A stretch of DNA of 64,000 nt from Polaribacter sp. Q13. Its GTDB lineage: Bacteria > Bacteroidota > Bacteroidia > Flavobacteriales > Flavobacteriaceae. The stretch is taken from positions 1,880,001 to 1,944,000 of the forward strand of contig NZ_CP074436.1 in the NCBI RefSeq assembly GCF_016858305.2, in the 5' to 3' direction. The translations under genes and the position numbers were made by a program. Shown one piece after another: positions 12,674 through 19,993 of the stretch. The notes below the pieces were generated by a model. That model saw only the letters and a list, made by a program, of their open reading frames with translations. It did not search any database and was not told the DNA's origin. How positions within the stretch are numbered: position 1 is the stretch's first letter; the number at the start of each line of letters is the position of its first letter.

Positions 12674-13315
12674 TTATTGTTTCCACTCACTTGGATTCTT
12701 TCTCCAATCGTTTAACGTAATTAGCTCTTTATCTGTAATATAATTACTATCTAAAGCTTGTTCTAGTAAGTTATCGTAACTACTTAAAGTGGTTAATCTT
12801 ACGTTTTTTTCCTCGAAATTTTTAGTTGCAACATCAAATCCATAAGAAAAAATAGCCACCATACCTTTTACAACAGCACCTGCTTCTTTTAAAGCCTCTA
12901 CTGCATTTAAGCTACTATTTCCTGTACTTATTAAATCTTCAATAACCACAACATTCTGCCCTCTTTCTAAATGCCCTTCAATTTGGTTCTTTCTTCCATG
13001 CTTTTTTGGCTCTGGCCTCACATAAATAAAAGGAACACCTAATTCTTGCGCAACTAAAACACCAATAGCAATTGCACCTGTAGCTACACCTGCAATTACG
13101 TCTGGCTTACCATATTCTAATTCTACAATTTTAGCAATTGCTTCCTTTAAAAAAATACGAACTGGAGGATAAGATAACGTAATTCTGTTATCACAGTATA
13201 TTGGAGATTTCCAACCTGATGCCCAATTAAAAGGGTCATTTGGACTTAACTTTATTGCTTTTATTTGCAACAAAAGTTCAGCCGTTTTTTTTGCCGTATC
13301 TTTGTTTAAACTCAT
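12674..13315 (-). CDS. pyrE: Orotate phosphoribosyltransferase
   Basis: 213 residues from the ATG at 13313-13315 (MSLNKDTAKKTAELLLQ); a longer reading to 13363 adds 16 residues not seen in the family. The PRPP loop is VVVIEDLISTGNSS, and VRPEPKKHGRKNQIEG is the flexible loop. It converts orotate and PRPP to OMP in pyrimidine synthesis, as a cytosolic dimer. Its start lies only 7 bp from that of the divergent NUDIX gene, and its -7 box overlaps that gene's ATG, so the transcript is probably leaderless or nearly so. Confidence 0.95.
   Translation of the reverse strand: MSLNKDTAKKTAELLLQIKAIKLSPNDPFNWASGWKSPIYCDNRITLSYPPVRIFLKEAIAKIVELEYGKPDVIAGVATGAIAIGVLVAQELGVPFIYVRPEPKKHGRKNQIEGHLERGQNVVVIEDLISTGNSSLNAVEALKEAGAVVKGMVAIFSYGFDVATKNFEEKNVRLTTLSSYDNLLEQALDSNYITDKELITLNDWRKNPSEWKQ
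13297..13304 (+). promoter_or_regulatory. Candidate -7 box of the NUDIX gene
   Basis: TATCTTTG is an exact TAnnTTTG match, 18 bp before the NUDIX ATG and inside the first codons of pyrE. It argues against using the in-frame TTG at 13302 as the start. Confidence 0.6.
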
Positions 13316-13319
13316 ATCG

Positions 13320-13327
13320 CAAATGTA
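13320..13327 (-). promoter_or_regulatory. Candidate -7 box of pyrE
   Basis: The minus strand reads TACATTTG, an exact TAnnTTTG match ending 4 bp before the pyrE ATG. With the usual box-to-start distance, transcription would begin at or next to the ATG. The box overlaps the NUDIX start codon. Confidence 0.55.
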
Positions 13328-13925
13328 TAAAGTTTTTGTAAATGATTCGCCAATAATTATCACTTCTTCTACAAAAAAAGAAAATATTTTTCCTGTTTAC
13401 AATTTTAAGAATGTAGTTATTTTAGAAATCATAGATAAATTAAGGAATAATGAGCTTAAAGGGATTAATTTATACTCTACAGACTTAGAGCAAGATTGGA
13501 AATCTTTTTTAAGTAATATGAAACTCATTCCCGCCGCTGGCGGATTGGTTTTAAACCCAGAAAACAACGTACTATTTATTTATAGAAATGGTATTTGGGA
13601 TTTACCAAAAGGTTGGGTTGAAAAAGGAGAAACAATAGAAACCGCAGCAATTAGAGAGGTAGAAGAAGAGTGTGGCATTACAAATCTTACACTTCGCCAA
13701 CCTTTAATTACTACCTATCATATTTATTTTCATAAAGGAATAAAACTAAAACAAACCTATTGGTTTTTAATGTCTTCTGATTATTCAGATACGTTAACCC
13801 CTCAACTAGAAGAAGGAATTACAGAAGTTGGTTTTAAAAATAAATCAGAAATTAAGACTGCTTTAAAAAATACCTATGCCAATATACATTTGGTATATCA
13901 AGCATATATAGATACTTGTATTTAA
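13323..13925 (+). CDS. NUDIX hydrolase
   Basis: 200 residues from the ATG at 13323; an upstream in-frame TTG (13302) falls inside a promoter box and is rejected. The Nudix box GWVEKGETIETAAIREVEEECG has all the Mg-binding Glu residues (G-x5-E-x7-RE-x-x-EE-x-G). Residues 1-75 are an extra N-terminal segment. The class hydrolyses nucleoside diphosphate-linked compounds; substrate unknown. Head-to-head with pyrE, a pairing that may reflect nucleotide metabolism (inference). Confidence 0.88.
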   Translation: MYKVFVNDSPIIITSSTKKENIFPVYNFKNVVILEIIDKLRNNELKGINLYSTDLEQDWKSFLSNMKLIPAAGGLVLNPENNVLFIYRNGIWDLPKGWVEKGETIETAAIREVEEECGITNLTLRQPLITTYHIYFHKGIKLKQTYWFLMSSDYSDTLTPQLEEGITEVGFKNKSEIKTALKNTYANIHLVYQAYIDTCI

Positions 13926-16233: not shown

Positions 16234-19200
16234 TTAATTTAAAACTTCGACAAATTCCCCAATAACTCTCATTTCAGTAATATTATCTTCATTTAAGATT
16301 ATATTTTCAAAACTCTTATCATAAGAATTAGGTTTTAATACAATTGCATCATGCTGCCAACCTTCTTCAGAAACTGTTTTCTCGCTTGAATATGTTTTAA
16401 CAGTAAAAGCCGAATTAAAATCAGGATCAAATGAGTCTCTATTTTCAATTAATAAAATTTTTCCACTACGAGAACCACTTACATTTTTTTTGAATATGCA
16501 TATTGAATTATTAGGAATAATCTTATTCATTGATTCTCCAATCACTTTACAAGCGAAATAATCATCTGTAGCGTATTTTTCAGGAGCTGATGTTAAATTG
16601 TATTCTCTTTCATCTTGCATTTCACTAAAGCTTCCTGCTGCTGCGTAGAAATCATATAAAGGAATTGTGAATTCTGATAATTTTAGTTCTACTTCTTTTT
16701 TACCTAATTGTTCTTCAGGCTTTACTATGGTTAAAGGTTCTTTTTTCCTATTGATAGATGTTATATAATTATACAAATCATCTTTTACAGGTTGTTCCAA
16801 TTGGAATTTAAAATGAACAACTGGTTTTCCAGATTCAGGCATTTCTGCTTGCTGAATAGAATCTTTAATAATTGATGCGTCACCCATAAAATAAAAATCA
16901 GTTCCTTCCGCATCTTCTTTTTTCACAAACAATAGTATGCGTTTTGAATTGATTACATTCTTTATTTCATTACTAGAAAGTTTCCTGTTTGACCTTGACT
17001 CCCAAGCAAAAACTGAAGGAGAAACAAAGTAATCGTTATATTTTATAGTATCTTCAATATCATCAGATTTATGATAAGTAACGAAACAGGGAGTGATTTC
17101 ATTTCTTGTTCTGTAGCCATAAACAGTGCTACTTATATCATTTTCCCAGTTTAACAATCTACAAACATCCTTACGGCTGTATTTATTAAACAACAACAAT
17201 CCATCTTTATAAAGATCTTTTTCAAAATTATTATTGAAAGTATTAATTGAATACTTTATTGAGTCCAGAAGAAATTCTTTAAAAATATCGTTAGATAGTA
17301 TCTTTAAAAATTCATCATGCAATTTGAGTACATCATTTTCTAGAAATATGATTTCCTCTTCCTTTCGAATAAAGCCAAAATTGATGTTTGAAATACAAGA
17401 TTTAATAGTTTCTAAACTTGGTTTATATTGATATTTATCAAATATAATTTCATTCAGTTTTGAAACACTCAGTTCATTTCTACAAAGTAATTCTTTTAAA
17501 ATAAAACTTTCTTCAACCCTTTTTGCATTATTTATCTCTTTTGAAAAAAGTTCTAATAATTCAGAGTATTTTGCATCTAACTTTTTGTCAAATGACTTAT
17601 CAACTTTATTGATAAAATTATAATATGACTTAGAATATTCAATGAATGAAAATGGCTCTCTAGCTTCATTCCTTACAAAATCCATCATCATTGGAATTCG
17701 TCCAATTCTGCTTTTTAAGTTATTGTAATCTATTTTTAAATCCGTAAGCAATTGCATCTTTGCAGAATCAATTGAAGCATATATTCTTTCTTTCGTAATT
17801 TCATCAAAATTAATAGTAGATTCTCCTGGAATCATACTACTACCTTCAGAAATTAACTTTCTAATTTTATCTTTATTAAAAGAAGTGTCTCCATATAAAG
17901 CTATTGGAATTAAATAATTGTTTTTATAATTACCAATAAAGTCAATGACAGTTAAATAATATTTATTGTCAGTTTTCCTTAAACCTCTTCCTAATTGTTG
18001 AATAAATATTATTGCTGATTGTGTTGGACGAATCATTATAACTTGATTAATTTTAGGAATATCTATTCCTTCATTAAAAATATCAACAGTAAATATGTAG
18101 TCTAGTTTTATAGATAAATTATCACTTTCTAATAGTTCTATTGCCTTTGCTCTTTCATCTTCGGAACTGTCTCCTGTTAAAGCAACCGTCTTATAACCTA
18201 TTTCATTAAATTTTTCAGACAATTCTTTTGCTTCATTTTTAAATGAACAAAAAACCAATCCTCTAGTTATGCCATTATCCGAACCATAAAATTCAATTTT
18301 TGAAATAATCTTTGAAACTCTTTCATTTGCTGTTAAAAGCCTAAAATCTGATTCTTTTTCAAGTACTTCATCATTTAAACTTAAATCTGTTACACCATAA
18401 TAATGAAAGGGAATAAGCATGTTCTCTTCCATTGCTTTATTCAGTCTAATTTCATATGCTATATTATGGTCAAAAAGACTGTAAATATCTTTGTCATCAG
18501 TTCTGTCAGGTGTTGCCGTCATTCCTAGAAGAAACTTAGGATTGAAATACTCTATCAATCGAACGTAAGAATCTGCTCCTGAACGATGTGATTCATCTAT
18601 AATTATGTAGTCGAAAAAATCGTTTTCAAATTGTTCTAGATGATTTGTTTTTGAAATAGTTTGTACTGTTGAAAAAACAAAATCCTTATCTAATTCCCTT
18701 TGTTGCCCAGAGTACAATCCCATTGTTTTACTGTCTCCAAAAATAGTTTGAAAGGTTTCCATTGCCTTTTTTGCAATGTTTAACCTGTGAACAACAAATA
18801 ATAGTTTTTTCGGGTTAAATGCTTTCGCATCAAAAGCTGCTAAAAATGTTTTACCTGTTCCAGTTGCAGATATTATTAACGCTTTGTTGTTTTTCTCTCG
18901 TAAGTTTTCTAAATTCTCTAATGCTTCTTTTTGCATTGAGTTTGGAATTACTTCTAAGTTAAGTTCTTTAGAAAACTCTTCTTCACTCTTTTTATAAACT
19001 AGAAATTGCTTTTTATAAATAGCTTCATATTTTTCTATATAAGCTTCATTTACAATTTCTCCTATTCTAAAATCATCTTGAAATTCAGTGATTACTTTAT
19101 CTACTATAGAACTTGAGTTTCTTGCAGAAACTTTCATATTCCATTCTTTATTAGTAGATAATGCCGAAGAAGTTAAATTACTACTTCCAATTACTAAATT

Positions 19201-19608
19201 ATAATAATCTGAATGTTTAAAAATATAACCTTTAGAGTGTGAATTTTCTTTAGTTACTATTTTTAATTCTATGTTCTTAAACTGAGATAGCCTTTTTAAA
19301 GCTTCAGGTTGTGTAAAGTTTAAATATTGAGAAACAAGTATTTTTCCTTTGACACCTTTATCATCAAGAATTTTAAAAGTATTTATTAATGCTGCAACAC
19401 CGCTTGTTGTAACAAATGCAACAGAAATATAAAAGCTTTCACAGTTTTCTAGCTCTTTTATAATTGTTGATAAAACTTTTTTCCTTGGAATTTTTCTATT
19501 TACAAGTAACTCTGGTTGATAAAGAGCCTCAGAATCTAAATCTTTATCAATAAACCCTGTAAGTAAACTGTTTTTAAAACTATCATTAAAAACTTTATTC
19601 ATCTTCAA
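16234..19608 (-). CDS. PLD-nuclease / SF2 helicase / DUF3427 / S24-peptidase fusion
   Basis: 1124 residues in four parts. (1) A phospholipase D-like domain, about 40-180, with one HKD motif: H124-x-K126 and GSSN at 141-144. (2) A superfamily II helicase, about 215-570: Walker A ATGTGKT ending at 254, DESH 338-341, MTATP 363-367, and QQLGRGLRK 537-545. (3) A DUF3427-like region, about 600-980. (4) A C-terminal LexA-type S24 domain: AAAG with Ala991-Gly992, S1026 in VIGESM, K1071 in FTVKTY. Helicases with PLD and DUF3427 domains occur in accessory defence loci. The gene overlaps an upstream NUDIX gene by 14 bp, so the two are one operon. Inference: a nucleic-acid-targeting defence or repair system. 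Confidence 0.87.
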   Translation of the reverse strand: MKMNKVFNDSFKNSLLTGFIDKDLDSEALYQPELLVNRKIPRKKVLSTIIKELENCESFYISVAFVTTSGVAALINTFKILDDKGVKGKILVSQYLNFTQPEALKRLSQFKNIELKIVTKENSHSKGYIFKHSDYYNLVIGSSNLTSSALSTNKEWNMKVSARNSSSIVDKVITEFQDDFRIGEIVNEAYIEKYEAIYKKQFLVYKKSEEEFSKELNLEVIPNSMQKEALENLENLREKNNKALIISATGTGKTFLAAFDAKAFNPKKLLFVVHRLNIAKKAMETFQTIFGDSKTMGLYSGQQRELDKDFVFSTVQTISKTNHLEQFENDFFDYIIIDESHRSGADSYVRLIEYFNPKFLLGMTATPDRTDDKDIYSLFDHNIAYEIRLNKAMEENMLIPFHYYGVTDLSLNDEVLEKESDFRLLTANERVSKIISKIEFYGSDNGITRGLVFCSFKNEAKELSEKFNEIGYKTVALTGDSSEDERAKAIELLESDNLSIKLDYIFTVDIFNEGIDIPKINQVIMIRPTQSAIIFIQQLGRGLRKTDNKYYLTVIDFIGNYKNNYLIPIALYGDTSFNKDKIRKLISEGSSMIPGESTINFDEITKERIYASIDSAKMQLLTDLKIDYNNLKSRIGRIPMMMDFVRNEAREPFSFIEYSKSYYNFINKVDKSFDKKLDAKYSELLELFSKEINNAKRVEESFILKELLCRNELSVSKLNEIIFDKYQYKPSLETIKSCISNINFGFIRKEEEIIFLENDVLKLHDEFLKILSNDIFKEFLLDSIKYSINTFNNNFEKDLYKDGLLLFNKYSRKDVCRLLNWENDISSTVYGYRTRNEITPCFVTYHKSDDIEDTIKYNDYFVSPSVFAWESRSNRKLSSNEIKNVINSKRILLFVKKEDAEGTDFYFMGDASIIKDSIQQAEMPESGKPVVHFKFQLEQPVKDDLYNYITSINRKKEPLTIVKPEEQLGKKEVELKLSEFTIPLYDFYAAAGSFSEMQDEREYNLTSAPEKYATDDYFACKVIGESMNKIIPNNSICIFKKNVSGSRSGKILLIENRDSFDPDFNSAFTVKTYSSEKTVSEEGWQHDAIVLKPNSYDKSFENIILNEDNITEMRVIGEFVEVLN

Positions 19609-19993
19609 TTAGTTTGTTAACTATAGGAATATCCGCTTCAGCCCAATCCAGTTTATCGATATCTTTTATTGCTAACCATTCAGAAGAAATATGTTCATTT
19701 AATTGTATGTCTTTTGTCTCTGAATAACATTTAAAACTGTGCATTTTTAATTCAAAATCAGGATATTTATGAATAACAGTTACAAATAAGTCATCTATTT
19801 TAGTTGGAATAAAGTTCAACTCTTCAATAAGCTCTCTTTTTAAAGCTTCTTTTTCAGTTTCTCCTTTTTCAATTTTCCCACCTGGGAATTCAAACTTCCG
19901 GGAAATATAACTTAACTTATTTTTTGGTCTTTGTACACAAAAAATTTCATTTTCAAAACAAATTATTGCAGCTACAACTTCAACTTTTTTCAT
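19595..19993 (-). CDS. NUDIX NTP pyrophosphohydrolase (MutT-like) in the PLD/helicase operon
   Basis: 132 residues, the size of MutT or CTP pyrophosphohydrolases. Full Nudix box: G39, E45, then RELIEEL at 53-59 inside GGKIEKGETEKEALKREL. The beginning MKKVEVVAAIICFENEIFCVQRP is typical of the (deoxy)nucleoside triphosphate pyrophosphohydrolase group. Its 3' end overlaps the helicase start by 14 bp, implying coupled translation. It could remove a modified or damaged nucleotide, or a nucleotide signal, linked to the helicase's job (inference). No obvious promoter box. Confidence 0.88.
   Translation of the reverse strand: MKKVEVVAAIICFENEIFCVQRPKNKLSYISRKFEFPGGKIEKGETEKEALKRELIEELNFIPTKIDDLFVTVIHKYPDFELKMHSFKCYSETKDIQLNEHISSEWLAIKDIDKLDWAEADIPIVNKLIEDE

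Follow-up and report, generated by a model that had tools for sequence, protein, structure and literature searches.

We analyzed a window of 64,000 nucleotides from the genome of Polaribacter sp. Q13 (contig NZ_CP074436.1, positions 1,880,001 to 1,944,000), in which two adjoining genes on the minus strand encode a NUDIX hydrolase and a large multi-domain protein. The large protein is related to SauUSI, the Type IV restriction enzyme that depends on 5-methylcytosine, over the full length of that enzyme, and carries an additional S24 domain of the LexA type at its C-terminus. The S24-bearing variant of SauUSI that the pair represents is real and widespread, and its NUDIX partner is tightly linked. 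On balance we favor, by somewhat better than even confidence, a Type IV defense enzyme with two brakes on autoimmunity, namely nucleotide-pool cleaning by the NUDIX protein and a damage-triggered self-cleavage that would serve as an OFF switch. Both open reading frames (ORFs) were present and intact, and the features of the pair are as follows.

19595..19993, minus strand: NUDIX hydrolase of 132 amino acids (aa), a probable 5-methyl/5-hydroxymethyl-deoxycytidine triphosphate (dCTP) pyrophosphatase (Pfam NUDIX/NUDIX_4; PADLOC PDC-S07, 144.9 bits; 3GWY, 133 bits).
16234..19602, minus strand: SauUSI-type Type IV restriction enzyme with C-terminal S24 domain, from an ATG start with an alternative TTG at 19608 (PDB 7clg, 760 bits; PADLOC mREase_IV, 779 bits; model match to 7clg).
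19595..19602, minus strand: overlap of the two genes, 8 bp (ATGAATAA), with likely translational coupling (sequence; recurring in 49/77 loci).

In the large protein, whose residues are numbered here with the TTG codon (19608) as 1, Pfam placed PLDc_2 at residues 50–178, ResIII at 222–369, Helicase_C at 444–544, DUF3427 at 688–950 and Peptidase_S24 at 983–1117. A phmmer search against the PDB aligned residues 4–950 with residues 2–952 of SauUSI (7clg) at 760 bits, and PADLOC named the protein mREase_IV (779 bits). The best PDB match of the full-length AlphaFold model (mean predicted local distance difference test score, pLDDT, 72) was likewise SauUSI 7clg (E = 1.9e-68). The core comprises three parts.

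19075..19461, minus strand: phospholipase D (PLD)-type nuclease domain with the HxK pair H124 and K126 (Pfam PLDc_2; conservation; aligned with SauUSI H119/K121).
17977..18945, minus strand: superfamily 2 (SF2) helicase-like ATPase/translocase (ResIII and Helicase_C; Walker residues).
16759..17547, minus strand: DUF3427, the end of the coupler and the SRA-like target-recognition domain (Pfam, 256 bits; SauUSI pocket residues kept).

Conservation was assessed in 120 proteins, consisting of the window protein and 119 relatives, the best-listed of 1044 matches, after removal of P0003, a database copy that is the same as the window protein. H124 and K126 were H and K in 113/120 proteins with a gap in the other seven, and the Walker residues K253 and D338-E339 were present in 115/120, with gaps in five. 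The methylcytosine pocket of SauUSI (Y831, F841, D858 and W868) corresponds to Y832, F842, D859 and W869 of the window protein, and SauUSI I842 to V843; these five window residues (Y832, F842, V843, D859 and W869) were invariant in 120/120 proteins. The position of the inserted Met829 of SauUSI is Tyr in the window protein and Tyr, Gly or Asn among the 120. SauUSI itself is described as an ATP-dependent dimer with a PLD nuclease, an SF2 ATPase, a coupler and a target domain of SRA fold (PMC7913695), which cuts DNA containing 5-methylcytosine or 5-hydroxymethylcytosine (PMC3874153). DNA cleavage by the window enzyme and its exact target site are predicted from this likeness.

These results upheld the domain reading in the preliminary description, which had listed a PLD-like motif (H124/K126), an SF2 helicase, a DUF3427-like region and an S24 domain; the profile check that it proposed placed PLDc_2, ResIII, DUF3427 and Peptidase_S24 each above its curated Pfam cut-off. 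It had also presented the pair as the best candidate for an undescribed system. This does not hold for the core, because the core belongs to the known SauUSI family, which according to PMC7913695 has been characterized biochemically and structurally, and PADLOC has names for both proteins. An undescribed helicase-nuclease system was ruled out for the core by PDB 7clg, PADLOC mREase_IV and the model match to SauUSI. Along all 953 residues of SauUSI (Staphylococcus aureus), the window protein has the same parts, namely PLD nuclease, SF2 motor, coupler and SRA-like DUF3427, with the HxK pair and most of the methylcytosine pocket kept. In contrast, SauUSI lacks S24, whereas the window protein has a probably co-translated NUDIX partner and its relatives have repeatedly swapped their target domains.

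The NUDIX gene was tightly linked to the nuclease gene. Among 80 loci, the best kept of 241 confirmed relatives from a search of genome contigs, a NUDIX gene lay upstream on the same strand in 78, and in the other two the contig ends there (0 and 172 bp upstream). When 390 Bacteroidota genomes were searched with P0002, matches of at least 110 bits occurred in exactly nine, the next best reaching 91 bits. These were the same nine genomes that carried a SauUSI-type gene in context, defined by a DUF3427 match at E < 1e-70 in a near-identical draw of 395, and the NUDIX gene was adjacent in all of them; a tenth DUF3427 match (G380, E = 3e-62) was on a 3.6-kb contig fragment without context. The NUDIX gene was also missing from sister genomes without the nuclease: G407 and G414 had no match at all, and the match in G422 scored just 24.6 bits. 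Outside the main set, NUDIX was upstream in a Hymenobacter and in three lactobacillus plasmids, and downstream of the nuclease in two human-gut contigs deposited as phage; the gene order had changed and the pairing was kept, which argues for function. In divergent DUF3427 proteins (target-domain score 19–38, ~1050 aa), NUDIX was adjacent in 6/11 Bacteroidota loci (L156, L157, L159 and L161–L163; of the five misses, L160 is at a contig end), so that the pairing extends beyond the S24 type. Context was taken for 20 of the 46 other matching genomes in the draw of 395. No NUDIX was found at six distant relatives (L116, L120 and L166–L169). A viral contig search with the L114 protein returned no relatives, and one with A1 returned 17, most of them distant or incomplete, and no NUDIX match accompanied any of these.

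The closest solved relative of the NUDIX protein was 3GWY (Q5LBB1_BACFN, Bacteroides fragilis), which matched end to end at 133 bits, and PADLOC PDC-S07 matched residues 1–130 at 144.9 bits. Identity was 47% to 3GWY versus 34% to MutT. The bit score of 3GWY was within the range of the SauUSI-linked NUDIX copies (110–177) and above the unlinked ones, the scores being from different programs. The NUDIX alignment held 85 SauUSI-linked rows, with L046, L092 and L110 left out; at the 53 positions conserved in at least 90% of the rows, 48 matched 3GWY, 36 matched 5x1x and 25 matched E. coli MutT. At the position of Asn119, a residue with a role in MutT, Asp was found in 96/96 linked NUDIX copies and likewise in 3GWY. 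Within the Nudix box, G39, E45, R53, E54, E57 and E58 were kept in 85/85 rows, and the last Gly of the box was replaced, by Asn60 in the window and variably in the relatives. In a screen of 74 substrates, 3GWY was reported to have kcat/Km values of 4.8e6 for 5-Me-dCTP, 4.4e6 for 5-MeOH-dCTP, 6.7e6 for 5-Me-CTP and 8.5e4 for 5-OH-dCTP (PMC5158307).

In two of the three lactobacillus plasmids, a MazG-like gene (PF12643) directly followed the SauUSI-type gene (L115:6868-7188 and L117:6930-7241). The best solved relative of this MazG-like protein was pyrophosphatase 4qgp; dCTP pyrophosphatase 1 and RS21-C6 also matched, and these have been described as pool sanitizers that hydrolyze 5-methyl-dCTP (PMC10742078). 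That hydrolases of two unrelated families lie beside this nuclease suggests that they act on one kind of substrate. MazG-like genes were also located away from the nuclease in 4/80 loci of the Bacteroidota search (L079, L089, L100 and L101), so that the proximity of such a gene is not evidence on its own. The measured activity of the closest solved relative, the conservation of residues and the tight gene linkage together suggest that the NUDIX protein is probably a 5-methyl/5-hydroxymethyl-dCTP pyrophosphatase. It had been introduced as a MutT-like NUDIX protein, of which the NUDIX part stands and the MutT part probably does not: its best NCBIfam match, MutT (TIGR00586), scored 79.7 bits versus a cut-off of 97.9, and Asp replaces Asn119. 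For the same reasons we rejected filing it as MutT, the 8-oxo-dGTP diphosphatase. NudG (PRK10546) was rejected on a score of 71.2 bits versus a cut-off of 156.

The second addition to the SauUSI core is the S24 domain, with the following features.

16237..16671, minus strand: LexA/UmuD-type S24 domain (Pfam S24, 27.8 bits, cut-off 23.3; model pLDDT 84 versus LexA/UmuD folds).
16672..16758, minus strand: variable linker between target recognition and S24, probably unstructured (mean column identity 0.36; pLDDT below 50 at model residues 951–976).
16633..16638, minus strand: predicted self-cleavage site Ala991-Gly992, FYAAA|GSF (Ala and Gly in 120/120).
16531..16533, minus strand: predicted catalytic Ser1026 of the S24 dyad (120/120 and 58/58).
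16396..16398, minus strand: predicted catalytic Lys1071 of the S24 dyad (120/120 and 58/58).

A model of S24 (residues ~980–1124, pLDDT 84, 58 sequences) matched LexA (1jhe), the LexA-RecA complex (8gms), lambda repressor and UmuD, and its 29 best PDB matches were all LexA, lambda repressor or UmuD entries. In the full-length model S24 was of low confidence, and its placement relative to the core is therefore uninformative. Ser1026, Lys1071 and Ala991-Gly992 were invariant in 120/120 proteins; in a more diverse set made up of the window protein and 57 loci, Ser, Lys and Ala were kept in 58/58 and Gly in 57/58, with one Ser. Mean column identity of the domain was 0.79. Ala991 and Ser1026 are 35 residues apart, equal to the spacing in E. 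coli LexA (84 to 119). This invariance of catalytic and cleavage residues suggests that S24 is competent for cleavage. The domain shares its fold, Ser-Lys dyad and Ala-Gly site with LexA, UmuD and lambda repressor, and differs from them in being fused behind a nuclease-helicase. No helix-turn-helix was found in the large protein by Pfam, and its identity as a LexA repressor was rejected on this ground. The host genome held one other S24 match, in a 144-aa protein of UmuD size.

S24 was in the same ORF in 61/80 loci of the Bacteroidota search and in 6/9 of the SauUSI-type loci for which the Bacteroidota sample gave context. Because 23/24 of the S24-less relatives end 1–8 residues beyond the target domain, S24 appears as a clean addition behind the variable linker. 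When the S24 label was mapped onto a tree built from 87 cores, 4 changes were required (shuffled mean, 21). The fusion gene of Polaribacter filamentus (L077:7001-11357) is interrupted, with the N-terminal part and the S24-bearing part in separate ORFs ~1.3 kb apart. S24-bearing versions also occurred in two records titled as gammaproteobacteria, Psychromonas arctica and a Neptunomonas metagenome-assembled genome (L055, L073), suggesting horizontal transfer; contamination may also account for them.

The target type changed far more often on this tree, and the target-recognition segment has been swapped between relatives.

16684..17733, minus strand: segment exchanged between relatives, residues ~626–975 (window protein versus L034 in 50-residue windows; core tree).

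When the window protein was compared with that of Lacinutrix mariniflava (L034) in 50-residue windows, identity was 80–100% in windows starting at residues 1–601, 24–64% at 626–951 and 72–94% from 976. Identity between the target domain of L034 and that of L098, a protein with a more distant core, reached 94%. The target type, marked by residue 830, changed 23 times on the core tree, with 13 changes forced by well-supported branches; shuffled target types gave a mean of 29 changes, and 7–9 of 500 shuffles were as low as observed. The core tree was a quick one with several long branches. Before it was built, L052, L103, L077, L094, L110 and L080 were left out for truncated, broken or split ORFs, followed by the duplicates L148 and L149.

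We propose that the DUF3427/SRA domain recognizes 5-methyl- or 5-hydroxymethylcytosine in incoming DNA, whereupon the SF2 motor would translocate and the dimeric PLD nuclease domains would cut. The NUDIX protein would keep methylated dCTP out of host DNA, as a cell with a nuclease dependent on 5-methylcytosine must not build 5-methyl-dCTP released by DNA shredding into its own chromosome. Because SauUSI attacks DNA with the same modified bases, self-protection is the simplest logic for the NUDIX protein, and we infer this to be its purpose. DNA damage would activate S24, most likely via RecA filaments, and the enzyme would cut its own chain at Ala991-Gly992. The cut would free a core of SauUSI length with the terminus -FYAAA, similar to the last residues of the host tmRNA (transfer-messenger RNA) tag (GEDNYALAA, ending -YALAA) and to the ClpXP degrons of LexA type; the idea of a degron comes from the likeness of chain ends only. 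Removal of the freed core would amount to a built-in restriction alleviation. LexA self-cleavage is reported to lead to Clp degradation of its N-terminal part (PMC11442139), and LexA-type self-cleavage of IrvR to expose a ClpXP degron (PMC7101444). With the FYAAA end, these cases make an OFF switch likely by analogy with EcoKI alleviation, and this is the least certain step. In EcoKI alleviation by ClpXP, a translocating restriction enzyme is similarly proteolyzed and the host spared (PMC4231737), whereas here the self-cleavage trigger would be built into the enzyme. That two co-encoded brakes are keyed to the enzyme's own chemistry, a pool hydrolase for the attacked base and a LexA-type self-destruction upon host DNA damage, we put forward tentatively, at less than even confidence.

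S24 could also work in the opposite direction, holding the intact protein inactive or tethered until self-cleavage under phage-caused damage frees the 991-residue core as an ON switch. The freed core would span all of SauUSI (4–950) plus the linker, the S24-less relatives end just past the target domain in 23/24 cases, and UmuD is reported to be activated by cleavage (PMC11442139). However, the FYAAA end that the cut would leave is similar to degrons that LexA-type cleavage exposes, SauUSI works without such activation, and its targets would be marked before damage arises; we consider an ON switch rather unlikely. The least probable of the alternatives is that S24 is a structural module for dimerization or protein contact without proteolysis. 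S24 folds can dimerize, and no DNA-binding part was found next to S24 by Pfam. Against this stand Ser, Lys and the P1 Ala, kept in 120/120 and 58/58, the P1' Gly, kept in 120/120 and 57/58, and the mean domain identity of 0.79.

For the NUDIX protein, an offensive role, in which it would remove 5-hydroxymethyl-dCTP or 5-methyl-dCTP made by phages and starve those building modified DNA, is consistent with 3GWY accepting both nucleotides (PMC5158307). Once the modified base was gone from phage DNA, however, the phage would be spared by the partner nuclease, and as the two activities would oppose each other we regard such a role as improbable. More improbable still is a MutT-like 8-oxo-dGTP sanitizer or general repair gene riding in the operon. 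MutT was the best NCBIfam match, though below its cut-off (79.7 versus 97.9 bits), and Bell et al. label the streptococcal neighbor, a MutT homolog, as 'DNA repair' (PMC7641849). In contrast, identity was higher to 3GWY (47%) than to MutT (34%), 48 of the 53 conserved positions matched 3GWY versus 25 for MutT, Asp replaced Asn119, and the NUDIX gene was gained or lost together with the nuclease. A housekeeping MutT was rejected, as the NUDIX gene is present or absent together with the nuclease, is adjacent in 9/9 genomes and is nearer to 3GWY than to MutT.

Several findings weigh against a self-protecting enzyme with a damage-triggered OFF switch. The structure 5x1x, which was deposited as a mutator MutT protein, likewise has Asp at the Asn119 position, so that Asp alone does not fix the substrate, and the NUDIX protein reached neither the MutT nor the NudG cut-off of NCBIfam. 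The Fusobacterium relative (L116) had no NUDIX in its 4-kb flanks. S24 was absent from 24/89 proteins compared, from SauUSI itself and from 3/9 sampled Bacteroidota genomes, and is thus not required. The host genome had no match to the LexA DNA-binding family, so that a classical LexA regulon may be absent, and LexA-like cleavage can be independent of RecA, as reported for IrvR (PMC7101444). In the set of 89, a pocket residue differed at one position in a few far relatives (L114, L116, L118, L119, L079 and L101). Finally, C5-methyltransferases accompanied SauUSI-type genes in 9/31 distinct genomes versus 175/381 in the rest of the phylum sample (two-sided p = 0.09); raw counts, before removal of duplicate and shared genomes, were 9/32 versus 178/390, and the comparison was not matched for phylogeny. 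Avoidance of C5-methyltransferases was rejected as strong support on this p-value and is suggestive at most.

No C5-cytosine methyltransferase (PF00145) was found in the host genome, this family being the only one searched, and no methyltransferase was evident by eye among the neighboring ORFs, which agrees with the SauUSI-type assignment. The three sister genomes read at the same slot carried other modification or defense-type cassettes. The suggestion in the preliminary description of a phage-defense or DNA-damage role fits in the part that concerns defense against foreign DNA, through the SauUSI-type identity and these cassettes.

The NUDIX gene and the multi-domain fusion were, as described, adjoining ORFs with domains above curated Pfam cut-offs. 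The large gene probably starts at the ATG at 19602, giving 1122 aa, rather than at the TTG at 19608; the database copy P0003 is also 1122 aa. The length of 1124 residues given earlier holds from the TTG. Counted from the ATG, the two genes share 8 bp rather than the 14 bp claimed. An 8-bp overlap recurred in 49/77 related loci, and in 75/77 the genes overlapped or were separated by no more than 30 bases; in the remaining two, no ATG was located by script. The genes framing the pair, a SulP-type transporter and a 562-aa membrane protein (both named by eye), look unrelated to it, as had been stated. A second NUDIX-like ORF (13302–13925, 207 aa, by eye) overlaps the start of a pyrE-like ORF, is unrelated to the pair, and was found with sulP in five sister genomes.

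Parts of this arrangement have been reported. In streptococci, small 'DNA repair' proteins beside SauUSI homologs are MutT homologs according to the legend of Fig. 9 of Bell et al. (2020, PMC7641849), which gives no function for them. In S. suis, PDC-S07 and Type IV restriction-modification are reported to be co-localized in 23/23 cases (PMC12813430). PDC-S07, whose model the window NUDIX matches almost end to end, has been listed as a candidate phage-defense gene with no mechanism given, whereas here it is placed as the partner of a 5-methylcytosine-dependent nuclease. 3GWY shares full-length similarity and Asp at the Asn119 position with the window NUDIX and is 47% identical to it. Database names of the fusion proteins include 'HKD family nuclease/SOS-response transcriptional repressor LexA'. 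Among the matches listed from the open-licence literature, no paper dealt with a Type IV enzyme fused to S24, and none linked sanitation of 5-methyl-dCTP, the proposed NUDIX substrate, to the target of a Type IV enzyme. The SauUSI core and the MutT-SauUSI adjacency, without a mechanism, are known; the S24 fusion and the proposed 5-methyl-dCTP link as partner function appear to be new.

Type IV enzymes have no protecting methylase, and the host must stay free of the modified base. The paired NUDIX protein would be a specific answer to how a host avoids this base while shredding and recycling methylated DNA. The pairing reaches beyond Bacteroidota to lactobacilli, with a second, unrelated dCTP-pyrophosphatase-like gene in 2/3 loci. 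Swapping of the target domain is a route by which SauUSI-type enzymes may change specificity. If the proposed role is true, a restriction motor with a LexA-like domain would carry its own means of restriction alleviation, and a defense enzyme whose host is kept safe by sanitizing of the nucleotide pool, in place of an antidote or a methylase, would represent a new principle of discrimination between self and non-self.

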